A DNA stretch of 64,000 bases from Paramyrothecium sp. XJ0827 (taxonomy: Eukaryota; Ascomycota; Sordariomycetes; Hypocreales; Stachybotryaceae), in the NCBI GenBank assembly GCA_020881915.1, contig JAJFPB010000001.1:248001-312000 (forward strand), given 5' to 3'. The notes under the pieces are model-generated. The model saw nothing but the letters and a program-made list of their open reading frames with translations. It searched no databases and was not told the DNA's origin. Shown here piece by piece: positions 4,533-62,600 of this stretch (positions are counted from its first letter, which is position 1; every line of letters starts with the position of its first letter). The translations under genes and the position numbers were made by a program.

Positions 4533-5229
4533 ACATATCTTACGGTTACTTATGGTCAATGTGCATTTTATGTGGAGGAGGTAAAACAATGATGACCAAG
4601 AATTTGTTTGGAATATGACCACTTTTATCTAACCTCAAGGGTGGAGACAAATGACTTGGCCATGATTCTTGAATAAAACATTGACACCACTGATCTATAA
4701 GCCTTATGCAAGTTTTATTCAAATGTTGAGGATATGACATAGAAAGCTCTCTTACATGCCATCTGTCTGTCCATCTGTCTGTCTTTTCTTAAGTTGCTAC
4801 GGTCTGGATCCGTGTCTTCCAACGGGCTATTGATGGCGGTGCTGAACGCAGGCTTATCCACCGCCAGATGCTGATCACGGCTTGAGGATTCAATTTAACG
4901 CTCCATCGGGTGCTGAACGCATTTGTATGAGCCGTTCCTAAATTTGTGGAGTTTGCGCACGGCGGGAAGACCTATATTCCTTCTTATCCGCTATTAGCAG
5001 TCGCAATACGCCTTTAACGGGCCCTTCATCGCGTTAGGCAGAGAATTGATGACTACAATCTTCAAGAACCCCGACAGCCTGAATAGTCCTAGCTTGAACT
5101 GATTTATTGAAGGCTTTATTGTTCCCTGTCTGTAGGGGGCTTGGTTGTTAAGGAATTCGGTTATCGGTGGGTTCCTGGCTTGTATCACTAGGTTTGCTCG
5201 CGAGAGGCTTGAACCATCGCCAGCCGTCC
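4533..5229. other. intergenic, no gene seen
   Basis: No convincing coding sequence. A short CTGTCTGTC-type simple repeat lies near 4760-4785. The direct repeat GGTGCTGAACGCA occurs at about 4837 and recurs, imperfectly, near 4909. Confidence 0.4.
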
Positions 5230-5700
5230 CTGAAGGTTATTCCATTCTTTGAGAGGGCAATTCCACAAAGGAACATCTCGTTAAGTTGGCCACTTTGAAG
5301 TTCGTGATTTCACCTTCCTTGTCAGTATCAGACAGCAGGTAGAAAACGAGGGATATCTGGAGCTGGCCCAAATAGTCCTCTTTGGTACCGTCGGTGGCGT
5401 AGATGGTATAACCACCGTCTAAAGCGAGATGACAGTACGCGCCATGCGGCTAGCTCAAACTCTGTCCATCTAAGAAGCTACATTGCTATGAAATGGTGGT
5501 GTTTCCAGCTTGTCATCAGCCGGGTTAAATCGTTCTTCGCCAGCACGGAGCTCGTGGGTATCTGAGAGGCAATCACGCGCAAGTATGGCCTTGACACACC
5601 GAGAGGCGGCCTTGTACCATGAAGGATACAACATGCCTGCTCCAGGTCATCAGCCTTTTCGGACCACATCTTTCTGGTTGCTGAAGGCATTTGATTCATA
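5230..5700 (-). pseudogene. unrecognised gene relic downstream of the MFS transporter
   Basis: Two minus-strand stretches look like former coding sequence by composition and reading frame. One, around 5480-5650, reads YKAASRCVKAILARD and then GEERFNPADDKLETPP before a stop. The other, around 5245-5425, reads ALDGGYTIYATDGTKEDY and continues to a stop. They are in different frames with stops between them, and no domain is recognised. They could be the eroded 3' end of an unknown gene, or they could be chance. Confidence 0.25.
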
Positions 5701-16907: not shown

Positions 16908-18275
16908 ATGCCTTCTCAAGTTCTGGATTGGCCGGCTTGGCCAGAGTTCACGAGTCAGGGAATCAAAGACATGCAAGATCCCGACTTTTTGAACACCAAA
17001 AAGGCAATCATCAAGGAATATGGTGCCGATGCCTTGCAACGAAGTTGGATCCAAGTTTGCAATGAACTGCAAGCGGTCACAGACGAAATCGCCGCCAAGG
17101 GCAACACTATAATACCAATCTTGGACACCGACAAGGTGCTAAAAAATGGCGGCTTCTCAGGTGACGAAGTGGCCGAGATGAAGAGAATTGGCGCCTTCGT
17201 TTTCAGAGAAACAATTCCAAAAGAGGACGCTGGCCAGTTATATCGCGAGCTAAAAAAATATATTGCAGACAACAAGGACCGCATTCAAGGATGGCCAGCT
17301 GCAAGTCCATCAATGCTAATTCTGTATGACTCACCTATTCAAAACAAATTGCGCGCCCATCCCAGCCAACTTCAGCTTCAACGCCTCCTCAATGATCTAT
17401 GGCACGACGACACGAACGAGACATCCCCGGATCCTTTGGTGTATCATGATGGGATCCGAGATCGGGCACCAGGCCAGCCATTCCTTGGGCTTGGTCCCCA
17501 TATCGACGCCGGAAGCCTTTGCAGGTGGGCAGATGCCAATTATCGAAAAGTTTATGACAAGATATTCTCCGGCGCGCCACAGCACCATGATTCTTACGAC
17601 CTCGGGGTCCGCAAGTTGGCCAACCAGGAGCTATTCCCGGGCATGGCGCATTCTTCTGTATTTCGCGCCTTCCAAGGATGGACGGCGCTAACGCCTACAG
17701 CTCCCCGGGAGGGCACTATCATGGTCTATCCAAATGTCAAGGCCGCGATTGCATATACATTGCTTCGGCCATTCTTTAAAGCGCCATCCGACGCCGCCGA
17801 TGTGATGGACCCTGAGAAATGGACGTTAGATGCTACAACAGGGTGGTTTCCGGGGACGACGAAACCAGACAGTCAGCGCTTGAGCCGAACTTCTCATCCG
17901 CATTTGCGATTGGAGGAGTGCTTAGTCCACATGCCGAAGATTGAACCAGGCGACACCGTCTGGTGGCATTCCGATGTAAGCTTCATCATTGTCATATAAT
18001 GAATGGATTCGACTAACTTCAAACTAAAGCTTTGCCATGCTGTGGATACCGAGCACTTGGGCGAGAACAATGCTGCCGTCGCATTCATTGCAGCCTGTCC
18101 TTCCACCCCCATCAACAAGGCATACGTGAAGAAGCAGCTTGCAGCCACACTTTCTGGACGACCCTCCCCTGATTACAGCGAGGGAAATGACTTGAATGAG
18201 ACAACACTAAAGGGGTATGTGGGGCTTGGCGGCTTCACAGGAGAGGCAAGGAGAGCATTCGGATTCGAATTATAA
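16908..18275 (+). CDS. DUF1479 family Fe(II)/2-oxoglutarate dioxygenase-like protein
   Basis: Exons 16908-17975 and 18030-18275 (intron with CTAAC branch point) code for 437 aa with no lesion. The sequence follows the DUF1479 family, a double-stranded beta-helix fold related to non-haem iron dioxygenases. GPHIDAGSL at residues 197-205 gives the His-x-Asp pair (H198, D200), and a second histidine follows in LCHAVD (H359), the usual HxD...H iron triad. A distal Arg for 2-oxoglutarate is likely but not assigned. The substrate is unknown. It lies between a sugar transporter (divergent) and a Zn2Cys6 regulator (convergent, 44 bp apart), next to guanine deaminase, so a part in nucleoside or amine catabolism is possible. 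Confidence 0.85.
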
Positions 18276-31983: not shown

Positions 31984-33915
31984 CTACCACCAGCTAGGGT
32001 TAGGCTCCCGCCAGACATTTGTCGCGCAGTGGACCTGGCCGAGCTTTTGATGGTGCGTGAACCACGTGTCGATGAAGTGTACTGTGAATCCGAGTGGGGC
32101 GTAAGCATTCGTGATAGCTTCAGCAAAAATGTCAACACCATTGATGACAGGACCCCAGGGATTCGGAGAAAGGTAGTAAGAGTCTCCAAGAACAACACCA
32201 TTAACTGCGGCAGGGTAATGTGCATATACTCTCGCAGTTGCCTGGCGGCGTTGGACTGATTCTGTGTCGTTTTCACCCGCAGCACTGTCAGCGGTAGCAC
32301 GCTCATGTGCATCTTCTACCTTTGGCTTCGCAAACTTTGCACTCACAACCCTGGCCCCTCCGCCGTCATTACTGCAGTCCCAGCGATTAGGGTCCGAAGT
32401 CCAGATTCCAGGCACACGAAAGATCTCGGCGTCAGTGATTCCAGTCTCCTGTTTGATGATATCAATATTGAACTGAATACGCCCGGCAACATATTGCTGC
32501 GTTGCTTCAAAGTTCGGCCTCGCAAGCTCAAAGTTGATTGTGGATCTTGGCACACAAGGTGGTGTTATACCCGAGTATGGGTCCCATGAATAGACTGGAC
32601 GGCTTATGGCTCGTTTAGTACCATGGCCGGCAAGTGTAGCATTTTTCAAGAGCGCCATGCCAGCGAGTGGGTCGTCAGCCATGATGACCCATCCACGAGA
32701 GTTGTTGGCCGGGAGGAATTGAATGAATTCGTCTACGTGGCCGACATGAAGGAAGTCCACGTCAAGCACAAGCGGGCTCTGGGTTTCCTGTAGTTGTAAG
32801 AAGCGCAAGATTAAAGGGAGTCCGTCTCTGCCTTGACCCATGATGATCCGCCCGGCCGGATACTCCTTTCCGTTGAAGGTATACGGTGGGATCGTCTCCA
32901 GATTGCCAGTAGCATCCGCACCTTTCCCATTTTTTGAGTCGCTGATCCACACTTCTGGGAAATTGATGCCTCCGACCTGGTTATTCCTGACGTCTTTGAA
33001 GACGTATTCGCCAGAGCCAGTCCTTTGGTGGGACAATAGCATGAGTCGAATGGTGATAGGTCCATCAGGTCCGGGGATGCTCGCATATCCGGGCTCAAAC
33101 GTATCTTGTACCCAGGAATCGAATCCACCAAGTTGGATTGGGGCCGGTTGAAGCCCAGCTTGGCTGCTATGCGTGGTTACATAGGAGTTGAACTTGGTCA
33201 GCGAGCTGCTGGAACTCTTGGAAACAAACATCTGCTGGGCGTCCTGCAGATGGTTATGTGTCAAGTAAGGTGCGACTCGTAGCTCAATAAAATCGACCGA
33301 AGAAGCAGAACCGTCGGTGATAGTAAAGTGCACCTTTACTCGGCCATCCCACACGTTTGGCCTGCGCACATCACGGCCGTCAATGCCGAGCCGCAAGCCT
33401 GCCCGAATCTCCGTGGCTGTGAACCGGCGGGCATCTTCTACAAAGGAAAAGCCGTTCCCATCGTTGAAGAAGATACGTACGCGTTGCGCAGCCACGGGGT
33501 CGTTCACTTTGATGGTGCCGAATGCGTTATTGCTTATGCCGGTTGCAGGCTTGGTGCGGATAGGGGCCAGATATTGTGGCTGCCGTAAGATGTTGTCTGT
33601 CGCGTCATGGCATAGATGCATTTGACTGCTCTGGCCAATTATATGCGCGGATCCGCAACGATGATCCGTATCTACGACATTGGGCAGGAAGAGAGCTCCT
33701 CGCTCCTCGGTCCAAGTCTGCTTTCCTACGACATCCAGGTTTCCATTAATATCCACGCTGCCGTCTCTGTTCGTATCAGCTAGAATTGTAGCCGTAAAAG
33801 CGCTGATGGTATGGCAGGAGGCTAGTCAGTCGCATAAGTCACGAAGGTCAACTGTGGAAGGGATCTCTGATTTACCAAGGGCCAAAAGAGCGGATTTTCT
33901 GTTTAGAAGGACCAT
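31984..33915 (-). CDS. secreted peptidyl-arginine deiminase (PAD)
   Basis: Exons 33876-33915 and 31984-33821 encode 625 aa. Exon 1 plus the first residues of exon 2 form a signal peptide (LLNRKSALLALASCHTISAF). A DTNRDGSVD loop after it resembles an EF-hand calcium site. The C-terminal two thirds match the PAD catalytic domain (PF03068). All four active-site residues known from animal PADs can be placed: D253 in DSWVQDTFEPGY, H375 and D377 in FLHVGHVDEFIQFLP, and C612 in LGQVHCATNVWREP. PADs convert arginine in proteins to citrulline with calcium. A secreted fungal PAD could act on host or cell-wall proteins. An insert-like hydrophilic stretch with a KxxEDAHERATADSAAGEND region precedes the last 100 residues. 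The gene is intact. The start was chosen because an upstream exon gives a signal peptide and keeps the frame. Confidence 0.9.
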
Positions 33916-35670: not shown

Positions 35671-35859
35671 ATGTCTTTCGTAACATTGGACGCTGGGCAA
35701 TCATTGCAGAACAATATGCCAAACAAGGACGAGCTTTGTAGGTCCTGCTCGAAAATTGACCTCTTTTCATTGTTCACTGGTCCCAGGTATTTCCCAGGGG
35801 ATGGATCCGGATGCCGCGTGCAAGTCGATGTTGGCACACTCCACCTCTTTGCAGGTTGA
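35671..35859 (+). pseudogene. out-of-frame N-terminal segment of the HET gene
   Basis: An ATG at 35671 opens 63 codons including ELCRSCSKIDLFSLFTGPRY and FPGDGSGCRVQVDVGTLH, a segment that typically stands at the N-terminus of this class of HET proteins. It ends with TGA just after it overlaps the next frame, which goes on LCRLIKHDIYGHAG. The two pieces belong together in related proteins, so a small deletion near 35840-35850 has probably put them out of frame. Confidence 0.5.
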
Positions 35860-37952
35860 TCAAACATGATATATATGGCCATGCAGGGTCGTTTGCCCCA
35901 GATGATCATGGGTTCGATTGTGATCCGAGTAGAGTCCGGTGTCAGCTGCGGCCAATTCGCACCGATTGCTTCGAGGATTCCAGGTATCTGAATCGCGAGA
36001 CACAAAACATGCTAGCCACTAAACTCGACGTAATCCTGTCAGCTGCGCCGGGTCCTTCTGAAGAGGAGGCTGCCAACATAAAGAAACGTCGAAAAGGCTA
36101 TGGGCTGCAACTACTATCACCCGACTCAGTAGACCCAAGTCGACCACTCTTGAATGGATTTCCTGCCTCCAACCTTCGGAACAGTCTCACGCTGTTATCA
36201 AAATGGATGGAAACTTGTGATCAGCACCACGGGGACACGTGCAGTCTACAACATGCAGAACCTTCACCTGACTGCACTCAGCTACGTGTCATTGATGTTA
36301 GCAATCGAAAACTCATGGACTGCAACATAACCGCCCGGTATGCTGCCCTCAGTTATGTTTGGGGCCAGCGGGAAAATGAGCAAATGCAAAATGATAAGAA
36401 AGAAAGAATGGGCCTTCCTCAGGAACAACCCACTTATTTGCCTTCTGCTACCCCAAAGGTCATTGAAGACGCTCTTCTTGTCTGCAAAACACTGTCAATA
36501 CCCTACCTCTGGGTAGACTTGTATTGTGTGCATCAGGAAGACCCAAAGGTCAAGTCGGCTGAAATCAGAGCAATGGCCTCTATATACCGTCGTTCATACA
36601 TCACTCTCGTTGCAGGCTTGCCTGAGGAAGAGAAATGTTCTTGGGCCGGCCAGGGCCTGTTGAGCATGTCAATGGCAGGAGACCAGACCTCGCTACAAAG
36701 AGTAGAGACGATCAATGGACGAGAATACATCTCGGCAATGAAACCAATTCGACAAGAGATTCAATCCTCGGCCTGGTGCAGGAGGGAGTGGACGTTTCAA
36801 GAAGGCCAGATGGCTCGAAGAATAGCCTTCTTCGGGTCGTATGACGTCTCATTTATGTGCGGTGCTGGGCATTGGAGAGAGAGCCTGCACTCAGGTCCAT
36901 ACGGCCATGAAGCAGACCTTCCCAGTCTGGATTTGAGCTCCGAGGGCTTTTACGCCCTCTCTTCCCTTCGCTGGCTCCGGGACGGGAATTGGGATTTCAG
37001 TGATTACCAGGATATCGTCCTCGCCTATTCTCAGCGGACCTTGTCCTTTGAGTCTGATCGACTTGATGCCATCTCAGGGTGCCTCAAGATTCTAGCCCAG
37101 GCAAAGCGAATCAATTTCATTTGCGGTCTACCTTCTGCGGATTTCCACTACGCACTCCTTTGGTATGGTGAGAGCGACCGTCCTCGCAAGGGCTTCCCAA
37201 GCTGGTCGTGGGCTGGCTGGCATGCTCAGAATCAGTCGTATTTAGTCTGCCCTCGGGGCTCTATTCCTGTGAGCCTGAGTCAGAGAGCGAATGGTGAGTA
37301 CGCACACGACGAACCGACCGCTGTCGATATTCAACTACAAGGTCTCCTACTCCGTTCCGGTTTGGAGCATCCTCACTTGTTCAACAGATGTTCTCAGCGG
37401 CTAGCATCACTGATAGTGTCGGAATCCGACAGAGTGTTGACTGTCAAATCTGGGGTCGCAAGGTTCTTCATCGACATCACTGCTGAGGATAAAAATCCCT
37501 CAGAACCCCGGTCAGAAGAGAATTGGGAAGATGGACAAATTCCTCCTGGTTTTGATACGACATATGGTAGTTTCAGCGAGCTATGGCACCCAGATATGGA
37601 ATATCGTAAGCCTTACGGTCGGTTCCGTTTACGAGATGCGTTCGGAAATGTGTACAAGCAGCACCTCCGCTGGTATGACCATTTGCCCACATTCTTTTGT
37701 GGCTTGCCGGATACTATGCGAGGTTCCACGTTGTCCTGGCTCCTAAAAGACGGGATTGAGTTGATACGTATTGTTGATGTGAAGCTTCTACAAGGCTCTG
37801 CACATCTCAAACCATTTCATCATATGCTCTGTATGGGAATTAACAAACATGAACATGTTCCTGGATACAAGCAGAGGATGGGCATTTTTTGCATCCCGAA
37901 GGATGCATGGGAGAAGACAGGTCCAAGAGATATGGAAGTCAAATTCAAATAG
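35811..37952 (+). CDS. HET-domain protein
   Basis: Single exon of 713 aa starting at the ATG at 35811. The HET domain (PF06985) is clear: RYAALSYVWGQ, IEDALLVCKTLSIPYLWVDL with YCVHQ, then EIRAMASIYRRSYITLVAG. Downstream are the usual SSAWCRREWTFQEGQMARR and FPSWSWAGWHAQ. HET proteins trigger vegetative incompatibility and regulated cell death. The modelled start is probably not ancestral: a Cys-rich leader in another frame lies just upstream (35671-35859). The present product still contains the whole HET domain and could be functional. An ankyrin, NACHT or other sensor domain is absent. Confidence 0.85.
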   Translation: MPRASRCWHTPPLCRLIKHDIYGHAGSFAPDDHGFDCDPSRVRCQLRPIRTDCFEDSRYLNRETQNMLATKLDVILSAAPGPSEEEAANIKKRRKGYGLQLLSPDSVDPSRPLLNGFPASNLRNSLTLLSKWMETCDQHHGDTCSLQHAEPSPDCTQLRVIDVSNRKLMDCNITARYAALSYVWGQRENEQMQNDKKERMGLPQEQPTYLPSATPKVIEDALLVCKTLSIPYLWVDLYCVHQEDPKVKSAEIRAMASIYRRSYITLVAGLPEEEKCSWAGQGLLSMSMAGDQTSLQRVETINGREYISAMKPIRQEIQSSAWCRREWTFQEGQMARRIAFFGSYDVSFMCGAGHWRESLHSGPYGHEADLPSLDLSSEGFYALSSLRWLRDGNWDFSDYQDIVLAYSQRTLSFESDRLDAISGCLKILAQAKRINFICGLPSADFHYALLWYGESDRPRKGFPSWSWAGWHAQNQSYLVCPRGSIPVSLSQRANGEYAHDEPTAVDIQLQGLLLRSGLEHPHLFNRCSQRLASLIVSESDRVLTVKSGVARFFIDITAEDKNPSEPRSEENWEDGQIPPGFDTTYGSFSELWHPDMEYRKPYGRFRLRDAFGNVYKQHLRWYDHLPTFFCGLPDTMRGSTLSWLLKDGIELIRIVDVKLLQGSAHLKPFHHMLCMGINKHEHVPGYKQRMGIFCIPKDAWEKTGPRDMEVKFK

Positions 37953-48698: not shown

Positions 48699-50901
48699 TC
48701 ATACTAACTGTAAATACTCCAGATGGACGCCCCTTTCTCTCAGATGACTTGCCTCCCATCGCGGATCATGCTCTGTAGTCCCACCAGTTTCGTGATAAAA
48801 TGTTCCATTCTCACGTTGACTCCAACCACTTGGGAAGTAACCCAAGCGAGCGTCTTCGCGTGCCGTCTCTCCAGTCTCAGTGTTTATAGTGGTCCATATG
48901 TCTCCCTTGGTCGTTCCGCAGTCGATCTTGAGCGCGTGTGGATGTTTGTAGTCTCCCAAGAGGCACTGCGCGTCCATCATATTTTGCACATAAGCTGGAC
49001 CTACGACTTGGAATGTGTTGCCTCCTTTCGGCTCAGGCCGAAGCACCATCACATAGTCGCAGCCGAGTATAATAGCCAGCACATCTCCTGGATAAGCAAC
49101 CCTTTGTTAGAACTGTGGAAAAAATGGGAAAAATGATCCACGAATCAGGGAACGCAACTTGCCTGATTTTGTTCCAGATGGACCGAGGCCAGGCAATCCT
49201 TGGCTGGTACAGAAAAACGTGCAAGTCCTCTCATCCCTCACAATGTTTTGGAGGAGTACGCTCTGAGCCAGCTCATGTTCGGATGGGGGTGTTCCGCTGT
49301 CGGTAAGCTTTAGCCAGTCCTCCACATGTCGGGTCACTGAAATTCCAATGTGACGTCTCTCTGAAGTCTATCCATAGACGAGTGGAGTAATGAAATCCGA
49401 TATCTTGGCACCCGAATGGGCATTCTGCTGCCATATTCCATGCCAGTCTTGTAGCATTGAAAATACTTCGGACATGGTTGAGGGCTGTTCCACCCACTTT
49501 TGATCGCTCATGGCTTCAACTCGAGCGACTCACTCCAAGCGCCAAGAGCGCTCCTGAATTACTCACTGTTGCATCAGCCCGACTCATGCCAGCTGCTTTG
49601 ACAAGCTGCCAAGGTCGAACCGAGGTACTTGTCCAGTCTGGAATCCATGAAGGACCATCCAATGTTCGTTTCTCCAGATCACAGTACTGCAAAAGCAGTA
49701 AGCTCCTATACTCTTCCAGAAATCCAGTAAAGAATTTCTGGTACACTGTCACGGTTCGAAGAGTATAGTCAGGTTGGATCCTCTCTGCGAGGCGCCGATC
49801 ACAGATGCCCAAGAGACCGTATATCCTATCCCGAGGATCGGCACACCCACATTGGGATGTCGATTGCAACAACTTGGACATACTATGCCACTCCCTAGAG
49901 TCTCCTTCGAAGGTGTATGGTAGCCAAAGGAGGGGATTAGGCATCAGACCCTTGCGCATAGCTCCGTCTGAGTAATGCATTTCTCTCACCATGACCAGGC
50001 CCCGGCGCAGGTAATACCAGGATATAGTCTCATGGCCAGCTTGAAAAATTGCATCTATATTTGCGAGGATAATTTCTTGCCATACCCAGAGCCTGTGGAA
50101 CCAAGATCGGTTGAGCAAAGACTTCCAGGCTTGCCAGGTAGAAACATTGAAAGGGAAAGTAGCGATCCACTCAGGGTGACTGCAGATTGGTGAGGGAATC
50201 TTCCCTGTGCTTTTCATCTCAATCTGCTTGCCAAGGAGCTCAAGAGTCTGAAGTGCCAAACTGCTGTCATCCGTCTCCGGGCCAAGCCAGGCAACTACAC
50301 GGGTAGCAAGTTCATAGATGCTGCCCATACGCGCCACATGCCGCCCTCGTTCAGTAAGATTACTTTGATCAATGCATATTGCGTCTACCCAAAGCTTCCT
50401 TGGAGTAGTCTCATGACGAAGATGGCGTAAAGCAGAGGCTAAATTGTTCGTGATTGGCATTGTTGCCAACAGCTCGCCTTGAGCCAGTTGTCGGTCATTG
50501 CCTGGTGCGCTCACTGTGACACTCTCCTCAGACGTGACATCTCCCCAGCAGTAGGAGAGTGCTTCAAACGCGGGCTGGTCCTGTCTTACTCTTCGAGCCT
50601 GTCGAGGTATCCTGGATACATATGCAACGGACTGATCTGGATGAGACCAGCTGGACTTTTGCTTTATTTCATTCCAAAATATGATGCGTCCCTCAAAAGT
50701 TCTATAAACCTGCCAGCCTTCTGGCAGTGAAGTTTGTAGTTCTTCAAGGTCATGATCAACCCCTGGAGATGGCTCGTCCGGGCACGGGGGTAGCATTGCA
50801 TGCTGAAGAGAGATGTGAATAGGCTCGTTGAACTTCCCCGGATGGAGATTGAGTAACCGAATCTCACCATCCTCAAGCTTCAAGGGTTTGTAGGAGAACA
50901 T
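48699..50901 (-). pseudogene. HET-domain protein with embedded WW domain, internal stop
   Basis: Exons 49534-50901, 49163-49484 and 48699-49087. The start is MFSYKPLKLEDGEIRLLNLH, the usual opening of HET proteins. Residues 59-88 form a WW domain (LPEGWQVYRTFEGRIIFWNE, second Trp at 85, Pro at 88) set into the loop before the HET core. The HET core is FEALSYCWGDV, KLWVDAICIDQSN, VARMGSIYELATRVVAWLGP, WFHRLWVWQEI and later ADPRDRIYGLLGI. The C-terminal part (GCDYVMVLRPEPKGG, GPAYV) is typical of the family. Between 49484 and 49370 the correct frame is reached through a 49-bp intron. A TAG at 49368-49370 then interrupts it (LVYG-stop-TSERRHIG, where Gln or Trp is likely). The last intron has a GC donor (GCAAGT). 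As it stands, the product would lose about 190 residues. Confidence 0.78.
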
Positions 50902-51933
50902 TGCTTCTGTCGCTAAGTAGTCGCTACGCGAAGCCAATTGCAGCAAAGAAACAGATGCTAGTAGCTTGCAGAGCGCGGTAGTTCTTTCTAATGAGAAATC
51001 GATGCTTAGATGGCTTCGTGAACAAGCAAAAACTCGTGTAGAAATTGGAACATCACGGGAACATCCTCCGGAGACTTATGATATGTGATATGCCTGATCA
51101 GGATAGCGGGGTTGTCATGCAACGGGATAAGATGACAAGAAAATACCTCACATGCAGGGCTTTGACTGATCTTTGGCATCAAAATCCTTTCATATCGACC
51201 AGGGGCATTTTTTACTCGTCGAGGAGGATACAATCTGCTCTTTGGATGGAAGCCCTCGAGTTATATCATTAACCCCCGGTTGTTCCCAACCCTGGGGCTG
51301 AACGAGTAATGGCGCAGGAGTCGACGAAATCCCCCACCCTTCCCTCGCTTGGCCCGACATATCACTACAGCACGTCATTTGTCGGGTTCACACATAGACT
51401 TAGATTGGAGTTTGGTAAGCAATTAAGCAGCAATATTACCTATGAATCATGCAACTAGCCCCGAGTCTCTACAAGCATTCTCCACAGCGAAGGTTGGTGG
51501 CAATTTCCACTTCACTGGCGTTACAATAAGCAATAACTGCTTTAAAGTACGGCGATGACGATCTCTTCCAACTGACATGATATGTCAGATAACTCGTCGT
51601 TAGGAGTCCGCCAAGATTAATATGTGCATGTGCTTATCCTGCGGTTGAAACGTCCTGCATTGCTTCTGTGGGGCTAAATGCTACACCACATACTAGCATC
51701 TTGGGGGCTGTTGGCGTACGGAACTTTAGGTGGCCAGTCAAATTGAAGACTCCCACACCCTCACTAAGCGATTAATGGATTGAGACAGCCCTATTCATCC
51801 CGCGAGACGGCACAAGATACTTGCCGTGACCTACTTAAGTGGCCAGTCTCCCAGACCACAAAACGGTGATGCCTGACAGCTTGCCAACACAACATCGAGT
51901 ACTTGGACACGCAATAAACCTTCAAACTGCACA
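50902..51933. other. intergenic, no gene seen
   Basis: About 1 kb between divergent genes (HET gene reading left, SnoaL-like gene reading right). It must contain both promoters. No specific sites assigned. Confidence 0.4.
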
Positions 51934-52401: not shown

Positions 52402-52960
52402 CTTTTGGAGCGGCAGTGTTTGTTAAGAGTCCTGAGCTTCGTCTAATGGTACCATATGGGCTGCAAAGGCTTCTTAAGAGTTCATTTATGGCTGAGACAA
52501 ATTATCAATGGGCCGAAGACTGGCTTGCAGCTCAGCTATGTCTGCAGGCTGTGTCATTGTGCCCGCTCTTCAGTCCCCCGGAGTTGGCTGCAGGCCAACT
52601 TAAAATGCTATTTCCCCTCCCTCATCCCACTTCTCAGGACGCTTGAGCGTGTGCCATATTAATATGAGTTTCGGTTCTAGCATCGGAGAATCGTCGCAAT
52701 CATCAGGCATGAGTAACTGATTGTCTTTGACATGCTGTACTTCATTGTACTCCGCGTATTACTAGCTGCATTACGTACTCAAATGCTTATCAGAAGCTGG
52801 GAATGTTCAGCTGAGTGCACATTCGGACGCCACAACACTAGGCGCGTGAATTGTGATAAGTAGAGGCGAGTCTCCTTGTGTGAAATTGTGTCGTTTATTT
52901 GCAGTTTCTTCTGCAGATAAAAATCGTATTGCGAACGATTTCGATCTATATTTGCCTATC
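52402..52960. other. intergenic
   Basis: 559 bp between two same-strand genes. No gene recognised. Confidence 0.4.
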
Positions 52961-55260
52961 ATGGATGAAGCAGGCATCTATCTCTCGGTGCCTTTATTAT
53001 CCTCTCGTTCAGTCCGCTTGATTGAATTTGAGTCCAAAAACAGAACAAATTCTATATCAATCTCACTCAAGAGTTTCGAACTGGATAATCTACCTCACTT
53101 CGATGCATTGTCGTATACGTGGGGTGATCCAAATTGTCCTTTTATCGAAGCTCCTTTTGTCGCAAGGCACGAATGCTACAGCAAAAAAATCCATCGGATA
53201 TTATGCAACGGTTTCGAAATGAAGATTCAAGCAAACTTGCTGGATGCCTTGAACATGCTTTCGCGGCCCCAGCTTCCAGATGCTTGTTTCCACCGACAGA
53301 GGTATTTCTGGATCGACGCTATCTGCATCAATCAAGCGAATGACGAAGAAAGATCTTCGCAAGTAATATTGATGACTACGATCTACAGCACTGCAATGCA
53401 TGTTATAAGCTGGCTCGGTCCTGAAGACCTGACAACCTCAGATGCCCTTGCCGTCATCAAGAAGCTGGCTCGGTGGGTTGATACGTCACTCCCCACATTT
53501 GATATCCAAAGAACCAAGGAGGAATTAAAGTGGGTGACGGCAGAGGATTTCCATAACTCAAACACGCAAATCTCGAAACTAGGTATCCAACCGATAAACA
53601 TTAACAACTGGTTGGCTTTCGCGTTTTTCTGTCGCCGGCCATATTTTAATCGAGTGGTAGGTGGTTTGCATTGTCCTTTCGCGTATTTATAAACCTGTGC
53701 AGATACTAATTGACAATGAAGTGGATCGTGCAAGAAATCACCTTGGCCAATTCGATTGTTCTGATATGCGGAAGCACTGTTATTTCATGGACTGACCTTT
53801 CTAATACTTTGTTTTTCCTCCTAATCACGCCGTGGTATGAGCAGCTAGGGAGCTACGATTTAACAAGAATTCCAGAATTCCACCATCCTTTATACTCCAA
53901 ACTGCTAAGCGAGCCAGGCTCGAAGAAGCATCTATACTCAGCGTGTGAGCTTGTGCTTAGCAGACACTGGACCCGTAACGGTACAGGATACAACTTGAAA
54001 AATTTGATACAGCGCCATCGTTTGTGCGATTCGTCAGACCCACGGGATAGAATCTTTGCACTTCAAAATATCTCGAACAAAAAGTACCATCCACTAGCGA
54101 CTCATGGTGCTCTTCTCAGTCCCAACTACTTATTGTCAGTGGAGATATTATATACCAGAACTGTCAAAGCCATGATAGACTCGAAGAGGAATCTATCAAT
54201 ACTGTCCCTTAAGGAAGATGAAACCTTCCGAGCTTTGAAGGCCTTACCGTCCTGGGTGCCTGATTTCTCGGTGCATAAATATGGCGAATCTCTTACAACG
54301 CGTATCCAAAATGCCGGTTGGGATGCAGATGGTTCCCTAGGATTCAAAGGACGCATTGATGATTTTGACTCGCCCAAACTGGAAGTGAATGGCTACTTTC
54401 TGGGACTGATTGGGGAAACAAGTACGGACACTATTCGTAAGGAAGGTGACTTTTGGATGGCCTGGATCAGCACTTTTAGGTTGGTTCTGAAGACTGCAGC
54501 CACTCGTCCAGCCGGGGAAGGCTTGTAAGTGTCTGAATATCTCAAAAACGTTGAATAACTCACTTTCTAACCTTGGATTCGAAGAGCTGATATGGTATCT
54601 GAGTCTGGAGATTCTCAGTCCGTGTCAAAGCAGAATGCGGTAACACGAGTAGGGGTATTCTGGAGAACGATGATCAATAACACCTTTAACGGGTCACACC
54701 CAGCTCCATACGAAGCAAGAGACCAGTTTATGAGTTACGTTGGCCTCTGGCTGAGGATGTTTATTGACAAAGGCTACGAGGAAGAAATTATGGAAATTTG
54801 GGACGAACTTATTGGCAAGGAACCACCAGGATCTCCTTACACGTGGGAGAACATAACACCCAGAGCAAAAGAATATAACGGCTGGCTTGAGGAGCAAGCG
54901 GCAAATCTGGAAGGCAAAGGGTTATCCAAGAACGAGATCAGACATGTGCAGGTGTCTTGGGCGAAAAGCAATCCGCTACATGGTCAGTTCCGTATTGATA
55001 TTGATAAAGCTGCAACAGGGCGTTATTTCATAGCTTATGTTGATGTCATGCCTGGTGGAGTCCTAGGGTTGGGACCAGAAACTTGCATAGCAGATGATGA
55101 GCTATGGATTATCGGAGGATTCCCGTTGCCGGTCGTTCTCCGAAGATGTTCTTCTAATGAACAGGAGAGACAGTTTGTTGGGGAGGCATATGTTTATGGT
55201 GCCATGCATGGCGAAGTAGGAAACTGGGGGATAGAATTAAGGGATATAATTTTAGTATAA
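52961..55260 (+). CDS. HET-domain protein
   Basis: Exons 52961-53656, 53722-54524 and 54585-55260 encode an intact 724-aa protein. The HET domain runs from VRLIEFESKN through HFDALSYTWGDPN and RYFWIDAICINQANDEERS to VILMTTIYSTAMHVISWLGP. The next exon starts WIVQEITLANSIVLICGS, the usual continuation. DSSDPRDRIFALQNIS and LPSWVPDF mark the conserved middle. The C-terminal module (GLGPETCIADDELWIIGGFP, then QERQFVGEAYVYGAMHGEV) is the beta-rich end shared by many HET proteins. The first 36 in-frame codons upstream of the ATG at 52961 are open, but the first is GTG, so the ATG was taken as start. It is the only fully intact multi-exon HET gene in the 48-62 kb island. Expected role: trigger of incompatibility or regulated cell death. 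Confidence 0.88.
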
Positions 55261-56335: not shown

Positions 56336-57154
56336 ATGCCTCCCTCGACCACGGGAATGTCGCAGCCAACCATGATAAAACAGATACAAGGTCCTCCTCG
56401 AGCGCCTTCCACAAAGCGCCCTAGAGAAGAAGATGGTCTGTTAACTCCTCCGTCCACATGGTCGGGTCGCCGCTCCAAGAGGCCGCGTGCGGCGGGTCAC
56501 GTCGGGGAACTTCAGCGAAAAATTATCGTGTCCATGACGGATTTCTACCGGTCTCAATTCCTCGATAAGCAGAAGGCATCGGCACTGAAATCTTGGTGCA
56601 AAGAAGTGCCGCTCACTGTGCAAGCGGATGCGGCCAGATCGTCCTACCAAGCGTTCACGAATGAGACTACCTTCTCAATCCCCCATTGCGTCTTCTGCTA
56701 TAAGAAACAGTCACCCGGAGATCTTCCTACAGTCCGATGGAAACGACTACCAACGCCATCCTTGCTGGAGGGCTTTTGAGAGAATCAGTCACTATTACAC
56801 TACAGTGGAAACAAACGATTGCGGTAGTTTGCACCTGCAGAGCTGCTATGGCTTTACGGGAATCTGCAGCTGCCTTCGCTTTGCGGCACCATAGCCGATC
56901 CCCAAGAAGAAGACTACCGAGCCCAAGTGATACGTTACGTTGACTCTGTATTCCACGAATGCCTAGATGAGGGGGTTGAAAAGATGACGCCAAAGGAAAG
57001 AAAGCCAATAGAACCTGTCGAGAGCATGATGGCAAGCGCCGAGACTCTTGCCGCAGCCCAAGTTAGTACGCCTGGTCTGAACGACCTCGATCGTGACCCT
57101 ATTCTAGGGGAGCGTAGACTGCGAAAATCCATTTTCCTGCGTGGGTCAAAATAA
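56336..57154 (+). pseudogene. unrecognised gene, two in-frame stops or unseen introns
   Basis: The ATG at 56336 opens 147 codons: a basic, Pro-rich N-terminus (STKRPREEDGLLTPPSTWSG, RRSKRPRAAGH, a possible nuclear localisation signal), a helical segment (ADAARSSYQAFTNETTFSIP) and a Cys pair (HCVFCYKKQ). The same frame, after a TGA at about 56777 and a TAG at about 56828, continues LPSLCGTIADPQEEDYRAQV, IRYVDSVFHECLDEGVEKMT, and ends GERRLRKSIFLRGSK at 57154. This leaves 7 bp before the 3' end of the convergent viperin gene. A spliced form without the stops was not found. The 3' end of this gene is included in the degraded copy at 41 kb. Confidence 0.45.
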
Positions 57155-57161
57155 CAGACGG

Positions 57162-58217
57162 CTACCACTGCAGTTTCTCATCATTACCACCGCTGCAGCC
57201 ACCCTGCTTCAATATGTCCGACCTCCCCCAATCGTAGATACCTCCGCGGTCAACAAAAGCCGCCTTGTCCCAGACAACCTGCTTCATTGCTTCCTGAACA
57301 CCCACCTTAAGAATGGATTCGCTCTTTGTCATCATGCCCTCTCCCTTGTCCAGAAAACACATGTACTCGTCCAGAAGCAAGTAGCTGCTTGCCATGGCCG
57401 TGGTGTCCTCTGGGACGTAGCATGGCAAATGTTTATGCCGGTCGCGGAACGTCTTCCACTGGTTGTCGGTCACGAGGAAAGTCCTGGCATCCCGCAGCCT
57501 AGTCGCGTCTTCGTTCTCGCCGGCTACGATGAGGCACTGGAATACTTTCCATCGAAATGGCGCGAGCCTCTCAATATCAGCTGCCATGTCCTCATCCCAA
57601 TTGTGAACGTTGACAACGGTATTCAACTTAAACTTGATGCCATATTCTCTGCACCAGTCCGCGACCCGGAAGAGTCGAATCACGTTCCCTCCGTCATCGC
57701 CCCGTCCAATCTTCTTGTTTGTCTCGGGTTGGAACGAATCACACGACACTGCGAGAATGTCCAGCCACTGACAATTCTCTCGAATCCATCTCTCCGTGAT
57801 TTTACTGCCGTTACTCACAATGCTGGTGCTTTCGATGCCAAGCTCCTCCTTGACATACTGAAGTAATTCGCTCAGGAGGCGCGGGTAGAGAAATGGCTCT
57901 CCACCAGCAATGTTGAGTTTTCGCATGCCGGCTTCTTTCAGCAGCCGCAAGCCGCGCTTGGCTTCATCGATCGGGAGGACGAAGGACGAGGTATCAGTGT
58001 GGAAACAAAAACCGCAGGTGTAGTTGCATTTTCGTGACGGAAAGTAGTTCACGGAAACTGGGATGTTGGGTTCCTTGCCAAGGTCCTTGGGGGAGTGGTC
58101 GACGCCCTCCGTCTTTGAGCGTCTGTGGAGTCTAATAAAGGCAAAAGTAATAGATAGCGCACTAATGAGCAGGCAATGCCACACGGGAAAGTCCCGTAGG
58201 AACGAAGTAATCGCCAT
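57162..58217 (-). CDS. RSAD2-like: viperin homologue (radical SAM ddhNTP synthase-like)
   Basis: Intronless, 351 aa from the ATG at 58215-58217. The upstream in-frame extension has only a GTG start and is not used. An N-terminal hydrophobic or amphipathic helix (FPVWHCLLISALSITFAFIR) precedes the radical SAM core, as in animal viperin, where it anchors the protein to ER and lipid droplets. The [4Fe-4S] motif is CNYTCGFC (C64, C68, C71), preceded by SVNYFPSRK and followed by HTDTSSFVLPIDEAKRGL. NIAGGEPFLYP binds SAM. SIVSNGS, LAVSCDSF, FRWKVFQCL, GENED and SYLLLDEYMCFLDKG are viperin-specific. The last residues LQW recall the C-terminal Trp through which viperin recruits the cytosolic iron-sulfur assembly factor CIAO1. 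Viperins convert NTPs into chain-terminating 3'-deoxy-3',4'-didehydro nucleotides with antiviral effect. The substrate here is unknown. Divergent from a nucleotide kinase. Confidence 0.95.
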   Translation of the reverse strand: MAITSFLRDFPVWHCLLISALSITFAFIRLHRRSKTEGVDHSPKDLGKEPNIPVSVNYFPSRKCNYTCGFCFHTDTSSFVLPIDEAKRGLRLLKEAGMRKLNIAGGEPFLYPRLLSELLQYVKEELGIESTSIVSNGSKITERWIRENCQWLDILAVSCDSFQPETNKKIGRGDDGGNVIRLFRVADWCREYGIKFKLNTVVNVHNWDEDMAADIERLAPFRWKVFQCLIVAGENEDATRLRDARTFLVTDNQWKTFRDRHKHLPCYVPEDTTAMASSYLLLDEYMCFLDKGEGMMTKSESILKVGVQEAMKQVVWDKAAFVDRGGIYDWGRSDILKQGGCSGGNDEKLQW

Positions 58218-58473
58218 TTTAGCGGCCCGTGGATGAAAATAAGACTGCAAGCCCCGCACGATGGGCTTCTGATATTCGGCTCCTCCAGGAGAAGGTTTCA
58301 GATTTTGTGTATTCACGCGCCTGCTGTGGGTATTTGTAATACTTTGGGCTTCATTGGGCTAATTTTGTACAACCCGAGGACGTGCCTGCCTCCTCCATTT
58401 CACCATCAAAAATTAAGCGCCACCAAGTTAACTCAACATCATCATCACAACACTTTGCCCTGCGCCATTCAGC
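58218..58473. promoter_or_regulatory. shared divergent promoter of viperin and kinase genes
   Basis: 256 bp separate the two start codons. An inverted CCAAT box (ATTGG at 58353-58357) sits near the middle, and the right half is CA-rich (CATCATCATCACAACAC near 58437). The close head-to-head arrangement suggests co-regulation. Confidence 0.6.
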
Positions 58474-59285
58474 ATGGGGCCACTTGAGTCTCCGCGCGAA
58501 CACCGTCGCAGCTTTGCGATTGTGTTTGTTATTGGTATCGCTCTCAGCCTATTATCTTACTCTATGCTAATCATATACTCTAGGGGCTCCCGGTGCGGGG
58601 AAAGGAACCCTTTCGACACACCTTGCGCAAGCACACAACCTCGTGCACTACTCGGTTGGCGATGGTCTGCGTGCTTGGATGCGCGAGAACCGCTCCACCG
58701 CACTTGCCGCCAGGATTCAAAGCAAACTGGAAAATCAGGGCTTCCTCACCTCTGAGGATCTGAACCCTTTCATTTATCGCCAAATACTGGCCACAGCCAA
58801 CGGCGACGAGCCTCGTGCCACGGGCATCGTAATCGATGGATATCCGCGATGTATGGAGCAGCTGGAGTCCTTCGGGCCATGGCCCTTTCAGAACACGTTC
58901 CCACTTGCACCTTCCAACGACAGTGGATTGGGGCTGGAGATGAAGCCAGACCTTGTGCTCTCGTTCGAGGTTACGAAGCAAAATGCGAAGGAGAGGTATC
59001 TGGCCCGGGCCCGGGATACCAATGACAGCACGGACAAGTTTGAAAGACGGTTCGCGGAATACGAGGTGGAGACTAAACCAGTAGAAGAAGCGTATCGGCA
59101 GCGTGGCATCTTGATATCGGTCAGTTCAAATATCTATCCACGGACCTGGGTGCTAATGTGTTCAGGTCGATGCCAACGGAATGAAGGAAGAAAACGTGGA
59201 GGCGCTTACTCGCAAGCTTCGAGAAAGCAACTTGTGGGGCAAGACTATTGAAGAGAGAAATACAAGAACCCGATTCCTTATCTAA
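58474..59285 (+). CDS. nucleoside monophosphate kinase (UMP/CMP-adenylate kinase type)
   Basis: Exons 58474-58534, 58584-59119 and 59166-59285 encode 238 aa with no lesion. The P-loop GAPGAGKGT (residues 21-29) is split by the first intron. It is followed by the NMP-binding region (HYSVGDGLRAWMRENRS), GIVIDGYPRCMEQLESF (the DGFPR-like motif) and a lid with RYLARARDTNDSTDKF-ERRF, then YEVETKPVEEAY and ISVDANG, the order found in UMP/CMP kinases. It should phosphorylate a nucleoside monophosphate with ATP. The base preference cannot be told from sequence. Being head-to-head with viperin it probably feeds the nucleotide pool used by that enzyme, as CMPK2 does for RSAD2 in animals. The extended loop around FPLAPSNDSGLGLEMKPD is an unusual insertion compared with short UMP/CMP kinases. 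Confidence 0.9.
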
Positions 59286-59554: not shown

Positions 59555-61842
59555 TTATATAAGCTCGATAGATGATAGAAAAGATTTACCCCCCTCTTCC
59601 CCTTCCAAAGATAACGATCCATGGATATAGGCTTGGCCGACAAAGGCAAACTGTCCACTTCCGACAGGCCGTAATATAGCTGGTACTTTTGACCCAACGA
59701 GCAGCCACAGCTGGTCATTTACCGCAAGCCCTGGCGCAGCCATCCCGAAGTAGTCTCTTTTCGTTCGGAAAGATGTAAGTGCTTTTGTGGTAGAAAGACG
59801 ATCAATAAGCTTCTCAGGCTCTTCATTTGCCTCGGGCAGGTACCGCGGGCTTGCATCCACGATATGTTTTAGCCGTCTTTGCCTTTCAGCACTCTCTTCC
59901 ACTCCAGAGACACAGTGCTCTTGGTCCTTGAAAGAATCATCGTACAAGCAAGCGTCCTTTTGCAATTTGCTCTCTCTTTTATATCGTCGTCTCGGCCTGC
60001 AGATGGGAGATTTGACTGGTCTTCGATTTCACCCACAGCGGCGTCCTCGGGGAAGAGTATGAAGTGCGCATCGACGTACGCATCCCAGACTGCCTTCCAC
60101 TCTGGGTTAATGGCACCATTCTCGTGTGTATGCAGCTTCCAGCCTATCTTCATCGTGTAAATCCATTGATGCTTGAAGTGGATGCTATAATTCTTGGGTG
60201 CAGGGGTTTGTTCCTCAATCGTGTCCAATATCAGGGACCGCCATAAAACTTCGAAACGCGACTGCGAATCAGCCGACCAGGGATACTGAGGTGGAAGTTT
60301 GCACGCAACACTGGCTGCTTCCGGCAGCAAGGTAAGCAAATTCGATTTGTTCGCTCCTCGTTCAATGACGCGGTCAATCAGGATGCCAGCTGCTGGCAAG
60401 ATGGCGCCGAACATCTTGCCAGGGGATGGCGGATGCCATTCCCAGCCCTTTTCATTGGCGGGAGTTGAGGCGCTCCAAGGAACGGAAGAGTTACTGGTGG
60501 AAACACTCCAGTCTGGAGCCCAAGACGGCAGCCCTTCCATCTTGTTCTCTGGTGTGACATATGTGAGCAGATCAAGATTTCTCGATTCAAAGAGGGTATG
60601 CCATGCGAAACTCAGATATACTTGTGCCGCCGTGTCGCGGTGGTCAACGACAAACTCTGTTGGGGGTTTACGCAAGTCAAGCTTTTGTTGATAGAGACCA
60701 AGAATCCCATAGACCTTGTCGCGCGGATCCGTAACGTCAAGGTGCCGAAGAGAGGCTACGACCTGCAGCAGCGAAGGTCGTGACGAATCTCCACTGGCCT
60801 CACATGTCCCGCTGCACTGATGCGGTATGACGGAAGAACCCATCCCAGAAAGCTGTGCGAGTCGAAATATTGCGTGCTGAGGATACGGATCGACCTTCTT
60901 CATGGTCGTGAAAAGAACAGGCTGCCCCTTTCGGCAAAGTAATGAGCTCGTATCCGTGTTCAGCTGAAGTTTGTGAAGAGCCTGCTCCATAATCTCGTGG
61001 GCGCTACCCATCGTCTCCAACACGGACACAGCGTAGACCAAGAGTAGCCAGTCGAATGCAATGTCGCCACATAGAATTTGTGCAGATGGAGCTAGACAGA
61101 GTTCTTGGACGACCCACATGCGTCTGAACCACGATCGGAGCAGCAAGGCGTAGACAGAGCACCATCTGTTTGATTCCGGAGGCGGTAAACCAGCCTTTCT
61201 GCAGGCTTCTGGGCCAAACCCCTCGACAGACTTTAAGCGATCGTCCGGGATCTTGGCAATACGGATTAATTGCGCGACAGCAGGCTTCGTGAATTCGTCC
61301 TGTGGTCCTAGCCAGACGGTGACGCGGCGGCATTGTGCGTAGATGCGTCCCATGATGGAGATTTGCACGTTCTTCTCGTCCGAATTGGTTTGATCAATAC
61401 AAATAGCATCAATCCACATATCCTCCAGAGGTGCATGAGGATTTCGCTCGGACTCTTTTGTGGTAGATAATTTGTTTGTTCGTAGCCTGTTTCGCCATGT
61501 TTTCAGGAAATGCCACAGATTCGGGGTCACTTGAGCTCTCCTGTTATTGCACAAGATACTTTTTTCGTTGTCATCCCAGCCATTGTCGCGCTTCTCGGCC
61601 GAGCTATAGACCGTAATGGGTGAACCCCATGTGTACGAGAGAGTGTCGTATCTGGGTTTAGACTCTAAATCCACCTGTCGCACTGAGAGTTCGGGGATAT
61701 TATCATCCTCCCAGTCGAGACGAGCGATGCTCGCAACTCGAATACCCGTTGGGGAGGCTAAGACTGTGTGGGTGAAGACGTCATGAGACTCGTCGGATGC
61801 TGTTTCATTTGACACCACCAATTGAGATTCTAGCGTCAGCAT
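59555..61842 (-). pseudogene. HET-domain protein, C-terminal frameshift
   Basis: From the ATG at 61840-61842 the first 650 or so codons are open. HET motifs are IRVASIARLDWEDDN, RYDTLSYTWGSP, EDMWIDAICIDQTNSDEK, SIMGRIYAQCRRVTVWLGPQ and WFRRMWVVQELCLAPSAQI. VTDPRDKVYGILGLYQQ and GLPSWAPDWSVS follow. The frame stops at 59869. A second frame overlapping it from about 59965 carries the expected family ending: YFGMAAPGLAVNDQLWLLVG, then KVPAILRP and FAFVGQAYIHGS, to a stop at 59555. The slip is -1 and lies between about 59870 and 59965. No intron could be found that joins the frames. The truncated product would keep the HET core. Corrected length is about 762 aa. Confidence 0.8.
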
Positions 61843-62600
61843 CGCTACCACGGCCAGTGTCTAGAGAATAAAGTGCCGGGGCGGAATGATAAGCAAAAGT
61901 TGTTTTCTTGCTTTCAACAATTTAGAGAGAGAGCTTTCAATGCAAAATTACAGCTTGAAATTGTGTTTTATTCTAGCCACCTCGTTGCGAAGCCGCGTTC
62001 ATCAGTGGCGATGTACCGCCACGCCGATGGTGATCAATACTTGAAGGAAGGGACCAAGGCTGGAGAATGTGGCTCAGCCACAGGTACCCAACAAGGATGT
62101 TAATATAAGCTTGACAAGGTGTTTCGCAAGAGCTGCATCGTGCAAAGTGGGGACGCCTAATCCTCCATCCTGATCCCTGAGCTGGCAAGCCTCACGGGCC
62201 AATGCAGCCACTGGAGCCGCCGACAGGTTACCAGTGAGCTCCTGTCCCCGATGCGTCGCATCGCCAGACGGGTCATTAACTGAGCCATTGAAGTCACTCG
62301 GGGTAAGTACAAGAAGGAAATCTATAAGCATGGTTAGCTCGCAGACCCGCTCGTCCCTTTTCGCCCTGGCGAGCTGCTTCCCCGAAGGCATTACTGTTAT
62401 AACCACACGATAACCCTGCGTGAGGCTGAATGAAAGGGCACAGGGCAGACACGAAGAATACGAAACATGTGAGCTTTGTTGTAAAACCTTGTGGTGCTGG
62501 AGTTTCCATTTCATTTGATGCCCAAATCTTGCGCCGGCACCAAGAGGCTTGGCCGTGAAACTTGAACCGTGTAGCCAAGAGCCATCTTCAACCACCATCC
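61843..62600. other. intergenic between divergent genes
   Basis: 758 bp containing the promoters of the HET gene (left) and of the membrane protein (right). A minus-strand frame at 62074-62598 is open but unsupported. Confidence 0.4.

Follow-up and report, generated by a model that had tools for sequence, protein, structure and literature searches.

Viperin genes with a nucleotide kinase gene as their neighbour have been described in both animals and bacteria. In the chicken, CMPK2 adjoins the viperin gene in the opposite direction, and CMPK2, which is mitochondrial in mammals, carries a thymidylate-kinase (TMK) domain (excerpts of PMC9132166). Among bacterial viperins, 15% adjoin a CMPK2-like kinase, and CMPK2 is reported to support viperin (excerpts of PMC11249213), while the eukaryotic viperin itself is portrayed as ancient and widespread (excerpt of PMC10732462). 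Here, we describe a viperin-like gene and a nucleoside monophosphate (NMP) kinase gene that lie head-to-head in the fungus Paramyrothecium sp. XJ0827, within a 64,000-nucleotide stretch (the window; GenBank contig JAJFPB010000001.1, positions 248,001 to 312,000) on one of the 15 contigs (C7) of a 51.8-Mb genome. Judged from sequence comparison, the two genes probably form a defence module of Pezizomycotina, in which the viperin would make a 3'-deoxy-3',4'-didehydro (ddh) nucleotide and the kinase would serve as its own source of substrate.

The viperin-like radical S-adenosylmethionine (SAM) gene occupies positions 57162..58217 of the minus strand (ATG at 58217, stop at 57162) and encodes 351 amino acids in a single open frame without an intron. 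Its product has an N-terminal hydrophobic helix (helix 10-37 in the model), the CxxxCxxC cluster motif (C64/C68/C71) and a C-terminal LQW. The kinase gene lies on the plus strand in three exons: exon 1 (58474..58534, ATG at 58474) encodes the N-terminus as far as the P-loop, exon 2 (58584..59119) the P-loop GAPGAGKGT, the NMP site SVGDGLR, the stretch DGYPRCMEQ and the lid RAR, and exon 3 (59166..59284) runs through the stop codon. Intron 1 (58535..58583, 49 bp) and intron 2 (59120..59165, 46 bp) both have GT..AG borders, and the reading frame is open once the three exons are joined, giving a product of 238 amino acids. The two start codons are 256 bp apart (58218..58473), and this gap is a candidate shared divergent promoter. 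Coordinates and open frames thus agree with an earlier note on this DNA, which had claimed an intact viperin and an intact NMP kinase on opposite strands at this distance. No repeats of 10 bases or more were found in 58150-58560, and a scan of the gap with bacterial promoter and terminator models, which are not meant for fungi, returned a single promoter and a single terminator match, close to the mean for shuffled sequence. Beside the viperin gene, a 147-amino-acid open frame without a Pfam match is present at 56336-56779 (+).

Motif, profiles and conserved residues together place the window viperin, by sequence, in the family that makes ddh-nucleoside triphosphates (ddhNTPs). The protein passes the NCBIfam model NF038283 (238 bits, cut-off 180), scores 381 bits with TIGR04278, whose strict cut-off of 450 it does not reach, and also matches PADLOC pVip. 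Its closest solved structures are the Trichoderma virens, mouse and Nematostella viperins. In an alignment of the window viperin with 112 of 120 listed viperins (at least 290 amino acids; 113 rows, biased toward close relatives of the window), to which five of 19 bacterial viperins were added where frames could be recovered, the CxxxCxxC radical SAM motif is kept in 110-111 of the 113 rows. Residues K100, R172, K197, K224 and Y279, to which we presume triphosphate and catalytic roles belong, are identical in the window, mouse and T. virens viperins. A second viperin was not found in the genome by a search with the window viperin, and the seven radical SAM matches genome-wide include MoaA, lipoyl synthase, biotin synthase and an Elp3-like protein, named by reading translations. 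Among viral contigs, two patterns yielded no confirmed viperin relative. A viperin-kinase fusion was ruled out among the 120 viperins listed, none of which has a P-loop motif.

The kinase matches PF00406 (ADK) with 71.6 bits (cut-off 26.8) and is also over the cut-off for PF13207, but it falls below those for PF13238 and PF13671, and the PF02223 thymidylate-kinase domain is not among its Pfam matches. Its P-loop, lid arginines and the arginines that we take to be catalytic are all intact in the alignment, and the predicted fold of a relative with 80% identity (P0001) supports the adenylate-kinase superfamily, short-lid type. The protein is accordingly classed, on sequence, as a short-lid member of the adenylate/UMP-kinase superfamily (PF00406). 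As in the animal RSAD2-CMPK2 arrangement, an NMP kinase stands beside viperin in opposite orientation and a substrate-supply role is proposed. Unlike CMPK2, however, the fungal kinase is of the PF00406 short-lid type and has no evident N-terminal targeting region, no predictor having been applied. The earlier note erred in equating this pair with the animal one, since CMPK2 has a thymidylate-kinase domain; the fungal and animal pairings are analogous, not orthologous, and because their kinases are of different types, the partnership was probably assembled independently.

The bacterial loci lead to a similar comparison. Nineteen bacterial viperin loci were compared, four of them with little flanking sequence on one side. 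In one, Nostoc L018, a kinase gene follows viperin immediately at its 3' end, and this gene (4957-5514, same strand as viperin) belongs to the thymidylate-kinase family (PF02223, Thymidylate_kin), in contrast to PF00406 in the fungal pair. When the P-loop scan included the adenylate-kinase type, two of the 19 loci were found, Nostoc L018 and L015, the latter with a 681-amino-acid ATPase-like frame. From sequence comparison, the present analysis appears to add that the kinase which partners viperin in fungi forms a lineage of its own, and that it goes with a subfamily of viperins whose diagnostic residues have changed. That fungi use a different kinase family suggests that dedicated fuelling of viperin has been assembled more than once; dedicated fuelling therefore probably answers a true functional requirement and is not an accident of history. 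In addition, the fungal pair offers a simple two-protein system for testing substrate matching.

With regard to the substrate of the kinase, the phylogenetic tree and the diagnostic residues do not point to one class. In a midpoint-rooted tree, where support labels near the root are perhaps shifted by one branch, URA6, CMPK1 and the Dictyostelium enzyme form their own clade (support 99-100), and the viperin-linked kinases lie outside it as a separate long-branch clade, apart from ADK1/ADK2/AK1 and from the ADK1, ADK2 and URA6 encoded in this genome. Thus, grouping with housekeeping adenylate kinases, which the earlier note had named as grounds for giving up the module idea, is not seen. Kinase relatives on viral contigs are generic adenylate kinases of 23-30% identity and served as tree references only. 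In 41/41 members, the residue at position 45 of the NMP site, a position that we take to be close to the base in known enzymes, is a Val or an Ile, as opposed to T/S in AMP kinases and A in UMP/CMP kinases. Position 113, presumably a base-contact site, is Gln in 41/41 members; the same residue is found in AMP kinases and, among UMP/CMP kinases, in fungal URA6, the others having Asn. Given the placement outside the UMP/CMP clade, Q113, and a residue 45 that fits neither class, the description of the enzyme as UMP/CMP-kinase-like is not established.

One explanation of these residues is that the kinase is an AMP kinase for general energy or nucleotide balance, its linkage to viperin being an inherited co-location without a common pathway. 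The invariant Gln at the base-contact position is as in AMP kinases, and the top NCBIfam score is that of adk (92.8 bits, against 73.1 for UMP_CMP_kin_fam). However, both scores are far short of their cut-offs (168 and 207.6, respectively), the fungal UMP kinase URA6 carries the same Gln, and a linkage kept over three classes is not easily given by neutral co-location, making this explanation improbable. A second explanation is that the kinase mainly recycles, re-phosphorylating ddh-nucleoside monophosphate (ddhNMP) that leaves RNA after termination or repair, or that arises by hydrolysis of ddhNTP, and prefers the product analogue over the normal NMP. Four ADK-family genes were found in the genome, the linked kinase together with URA6, ADK1 and ADK2 (named from sequence), and a thymidylate-kinase-family gene (PF02223) sits on contig C3; because this housekeeping set is encoded elsewhere, the viperin-linked kinase is an extra copy, as recycling would have it. 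The Val/Ile at position 45, typical of neither class, likewise makes a non-standard substrate possible, yet the odd residue is near the base, whereas the ddh change is in the ribose. A mainly recycling kinase is thus regarded as unlikely. Two members of the kinase family per genome were observed in Arthrobotrys conoides (P0052 and P0054) and in Elasticomyces LTR56 (P0076 and P0080), and A. conoides P0054 (TWF506_003061) has no viperin partner among those listed.

The pair recurs in other fungi. In a single genome, chance adjacency has a probability of approximately 5e-4 (four ADK-family genes found, 15,000 genes assumed), and this recurrence makes a chance origin negligible. The best 120 of 151 kinases were compared with the best 120 of 1,487 viperins, together with all 59 of 59 matches from a search with a Colletotrichum kinase, equal contig size in both lists being taken as the same contig; unnamed metagenome rows and one record pair labelled Quercus suber were counted as fungal by similarity. 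In this comparison, 38 of the 120 listed viperins share a contig with a kinase relative, and nine more do so through the Colletotrichum kinase search (47/120). Organism names are present for 38 of the 47 pairs and agree in all 38; conversely, 43 names are common to both lists, 38 with the same contig and five without. Where both locus tags could be read, 13 of 15 pairs are consecutive, and eight further pairs lie on contigs no longer than 15.2 kb; proximity itself is shown in other fungi for the 13 consecutive pairs and these eight only. Both the adjacency in other fungi that the earlier note had asked about and its wider idea of a conserved fungal pairing of viperin with a nucleotide kinase are therefore supported.

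The pairs span three classes of Pezizomycotina and are found in Hypocreales, Glomerellales, Xylariales, Diaporthales, Botryosphaeriales, Pleosporales, Mytilinidiales, Mycosphaerellales and Orbiliales; seven of these nine orders were checked via one species each, and the placement of carriers in Hypocreales and Glomerellales is assumed. Among the matches listed, the closest relatives of both window proteins are mostly from Fusarium. Viperin and kinase distances are correlated (r = 0.60, a value reached in 0 of 2000 permutations; 38 of the 47 pairs, nine with short sequences being dropped and the non-adjacent Diaporthe batatas pair retained), as expected under joint inheritance. In some cases, similarity across classes is seen in both genes, as evidenced by Lepidopterella (Dothideomycetes) with Monosporascus (Sordariomycetes), which hints, at the sequence level, at joint transfer of the pair. 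Shomar et al. 2024 (Nat Ecol Evol), whose paper may already cover fungi, reportedly found eukaryotic viperins to partner with genes to which they are genetically linked, nucleotide kinases in particular. A literature search that did not cover Bernheim 2021, Lachowicz 2021 or Shomar 2024 returned no description of a fungal viperin-kinase pairing, and absence of such a description is not claimed.

In the proposed mechanism, the N-terminal helix would tether the viperin to a membrane on the cytosolic side, and the enzyme, with SAM and its 4Fe-4S cluster, would convert a nucleoside triphosphate (NTP) to the ddh form, as its family suggests. The ddh-nucleotide would then terminate chains made by the RNA polymerases of viruses or mobile elements. 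The dedicated short-lid kinase may raise the local pool of the matching nucleoside diphosphate, and hence NTP, and/or may recharge spent ddhNMP, and the 256-bp head-to-head layout would allow a single divergent promoter to co-express both genes. The catalytic residues of both families are present, and the pair is conserved and co-diverging; to this extent the nucleotide-based module with its own substrate supply envisaged in the earlier note stands, its identity with the animal pair being the part that does not. A search of the literature on viperin and mycoviruses found nothing on a fungal viperin, and fungi that carry mycoviruses would permit a direct test of an antiviral effect.

Which nucleotide would be made may be reflected in two viperin positions. 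Position 59 is Phe in the window and in 101 of the 113 aligned rows (His in 11, Val in one), whereas mouse viperin, T. virens enzyme 1 and all five bacterial rows have a His here, in the NYH that precedes the cluster motif. This His is not a defining criterion for viperins, T. virens enzyme 2 having a natural Phe: this enzyme is in the PDB both with Phe and as an F40H variant, and the substitution maps to position 59 by sequence comparison. The F40H variant is the form that entered the alignment, and the natural residues were taken from the sequence comparison. Position 232, in the putative base pocket, is Ala in the window and in 79 of the 113 rows (Glu in 23, Thr in nine, Val and Gly in one each), as compared to Glu in mouse viperin and in T. 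virens enzyme 2, and Thr in T. virens enzyme 1. The T. virens enzymes 1 (6b4c, 7n7i, 9dgw) and 2 (9dfn) are fungal viperins of the same fold that share 53-55% identity with the window protein in the core region, and differ from it in the combination at positions 59/232 (His/Thr and Phe/Glu, respectively, against Phe/Ala). The structure 9dfw is an engineered T. virens enzyme 1 with CTP that carries mouse-like residues at position 232 and in a later loop, which suggests that its makers regarded these sites as substrate determinants.

Kinase linkage also differs with viperin type. Of the 112 listed viperins that were aligned, 103 fall outside the His/Thr type and 43 of these are linked, versus none of the nine of the His/Thr type (Fisher p = 0.012; 43 of the 46 linked viperins were aligned, D. 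batatas being counted as unlinked). However, this contrast is exposed to listing bias, as the kinase searches began from Phe-type partners; it could stem from that bias and is treated as a lead. Phe-Pro is present at positions 59-60 in 42 of the 43 aligned linked viperins, and His-Ala in one, from Pyrenophora seminiperda (P0225). It is possible, if on balance doubtful, that Pezizomycotina have a viperin subfamily with a remodelled site (His to Phe at position 59, and Glu or Thr to Ala at position 232 in most members) that is locked to a kinase outside the CMPK2 family and makes a ddh-nucleotide other than ddhCTP, the kinase being matched to that nucleotide or recharging its monophosphate. If so, the near-equal similarity of both genes across classes would imply that the two travel together from fungus to fungus. 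Positions 59 and 232 yield predictions of base choice that can be checked on purified proteins.

A number of observations weigh against a conserved module with a matched kinase. The head-to-head layout is that of the window, the pairs in other fungi having been read from locus tags and contigs. The kinase and viperin of F. oxysporum LZL87 are seven tags apart, and those of D. batatas, although on one chromosome, are 1,094 locus tags apart. The five shared names with differing contigs are Colletotrichum cereale, Daldinia loculata, F. proliferatum, Pyrenophora teres and P. tritici-repentis, the records of the last three coming from different strains, forms or assemblies. In addition, 73 of the 120 listed viperins lack a partner among the kinases listed; the extent of the lists and the clustering of the database at 90% may or may not explain this, an unmatched protein being no proof of absence. 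Shared species history contributes to the co-divergence. With respect to the base, the preference is weak, and Q113 of the kinase fits AMP too. CTP was the ligand in crystals of wild-type T. virens enzyme 1 and UTP in those of mouse viperin, and so the pocket residue alone does not set the substrate. Excerpts of reviews name UTP as a substrate of a fungal viperin and restrict eukaryotic viperins to CTP or UTP (PMC8124187, PMC11249213). By weak inference, a pyrimidine is the most likely base, and UTP has a slight edge over CTP.

The pair is located between HET-domain genes, as the earlier note had stated: the open-frame part of a HET-domain gene lies on one side (52853..53692, +) and a 660-amino-acid HET frame on the other (59869..61851, -), both being neighbours outside the module. 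Four of the 19 window frames scanned have HET domains (35811-37952, +; 49516-50946, -; 52853-53692, +; 59869-61851, -), one of them with a WW domain, and the HET frames are approximately 300 kb from the contig start. Both genes could instead be members of a HET/allorecognition cluster with a role in programmed cell death and none in antiviral nucleotide chemistry, and the density of four frames per 64-kb window, against a genome mean of approximately 0.2-0.4 per 64 kb, together with the two flanking frames, is what such a role would lead one to expect. However, at least 150 HET matches are present genome-wide (the count behind that mean), so HET neighbours mean little; HET genes are concentrated near chromosome ends, and the neighbour that recurs in the gene lists is the kinase. 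A role in such a cluster is thus very improbable.

The pair was also considered as cargo of a Starship, a giant mobile element, for which no support was found, DUF3435 matches being present on contigs C8, C9, C12 and C14 and none on C7. Elsewhere in the window, a 590-amino-acid frame (31984-33756, -) matches protein-arginine deiminase (PF03068, 333 bits), here in a fungus, and a 363-amino-acid frame (16908-17999, +) is Gig2-like (PF07350, 313 bits), a family whose name recalls the interferon-induced genes of fish.
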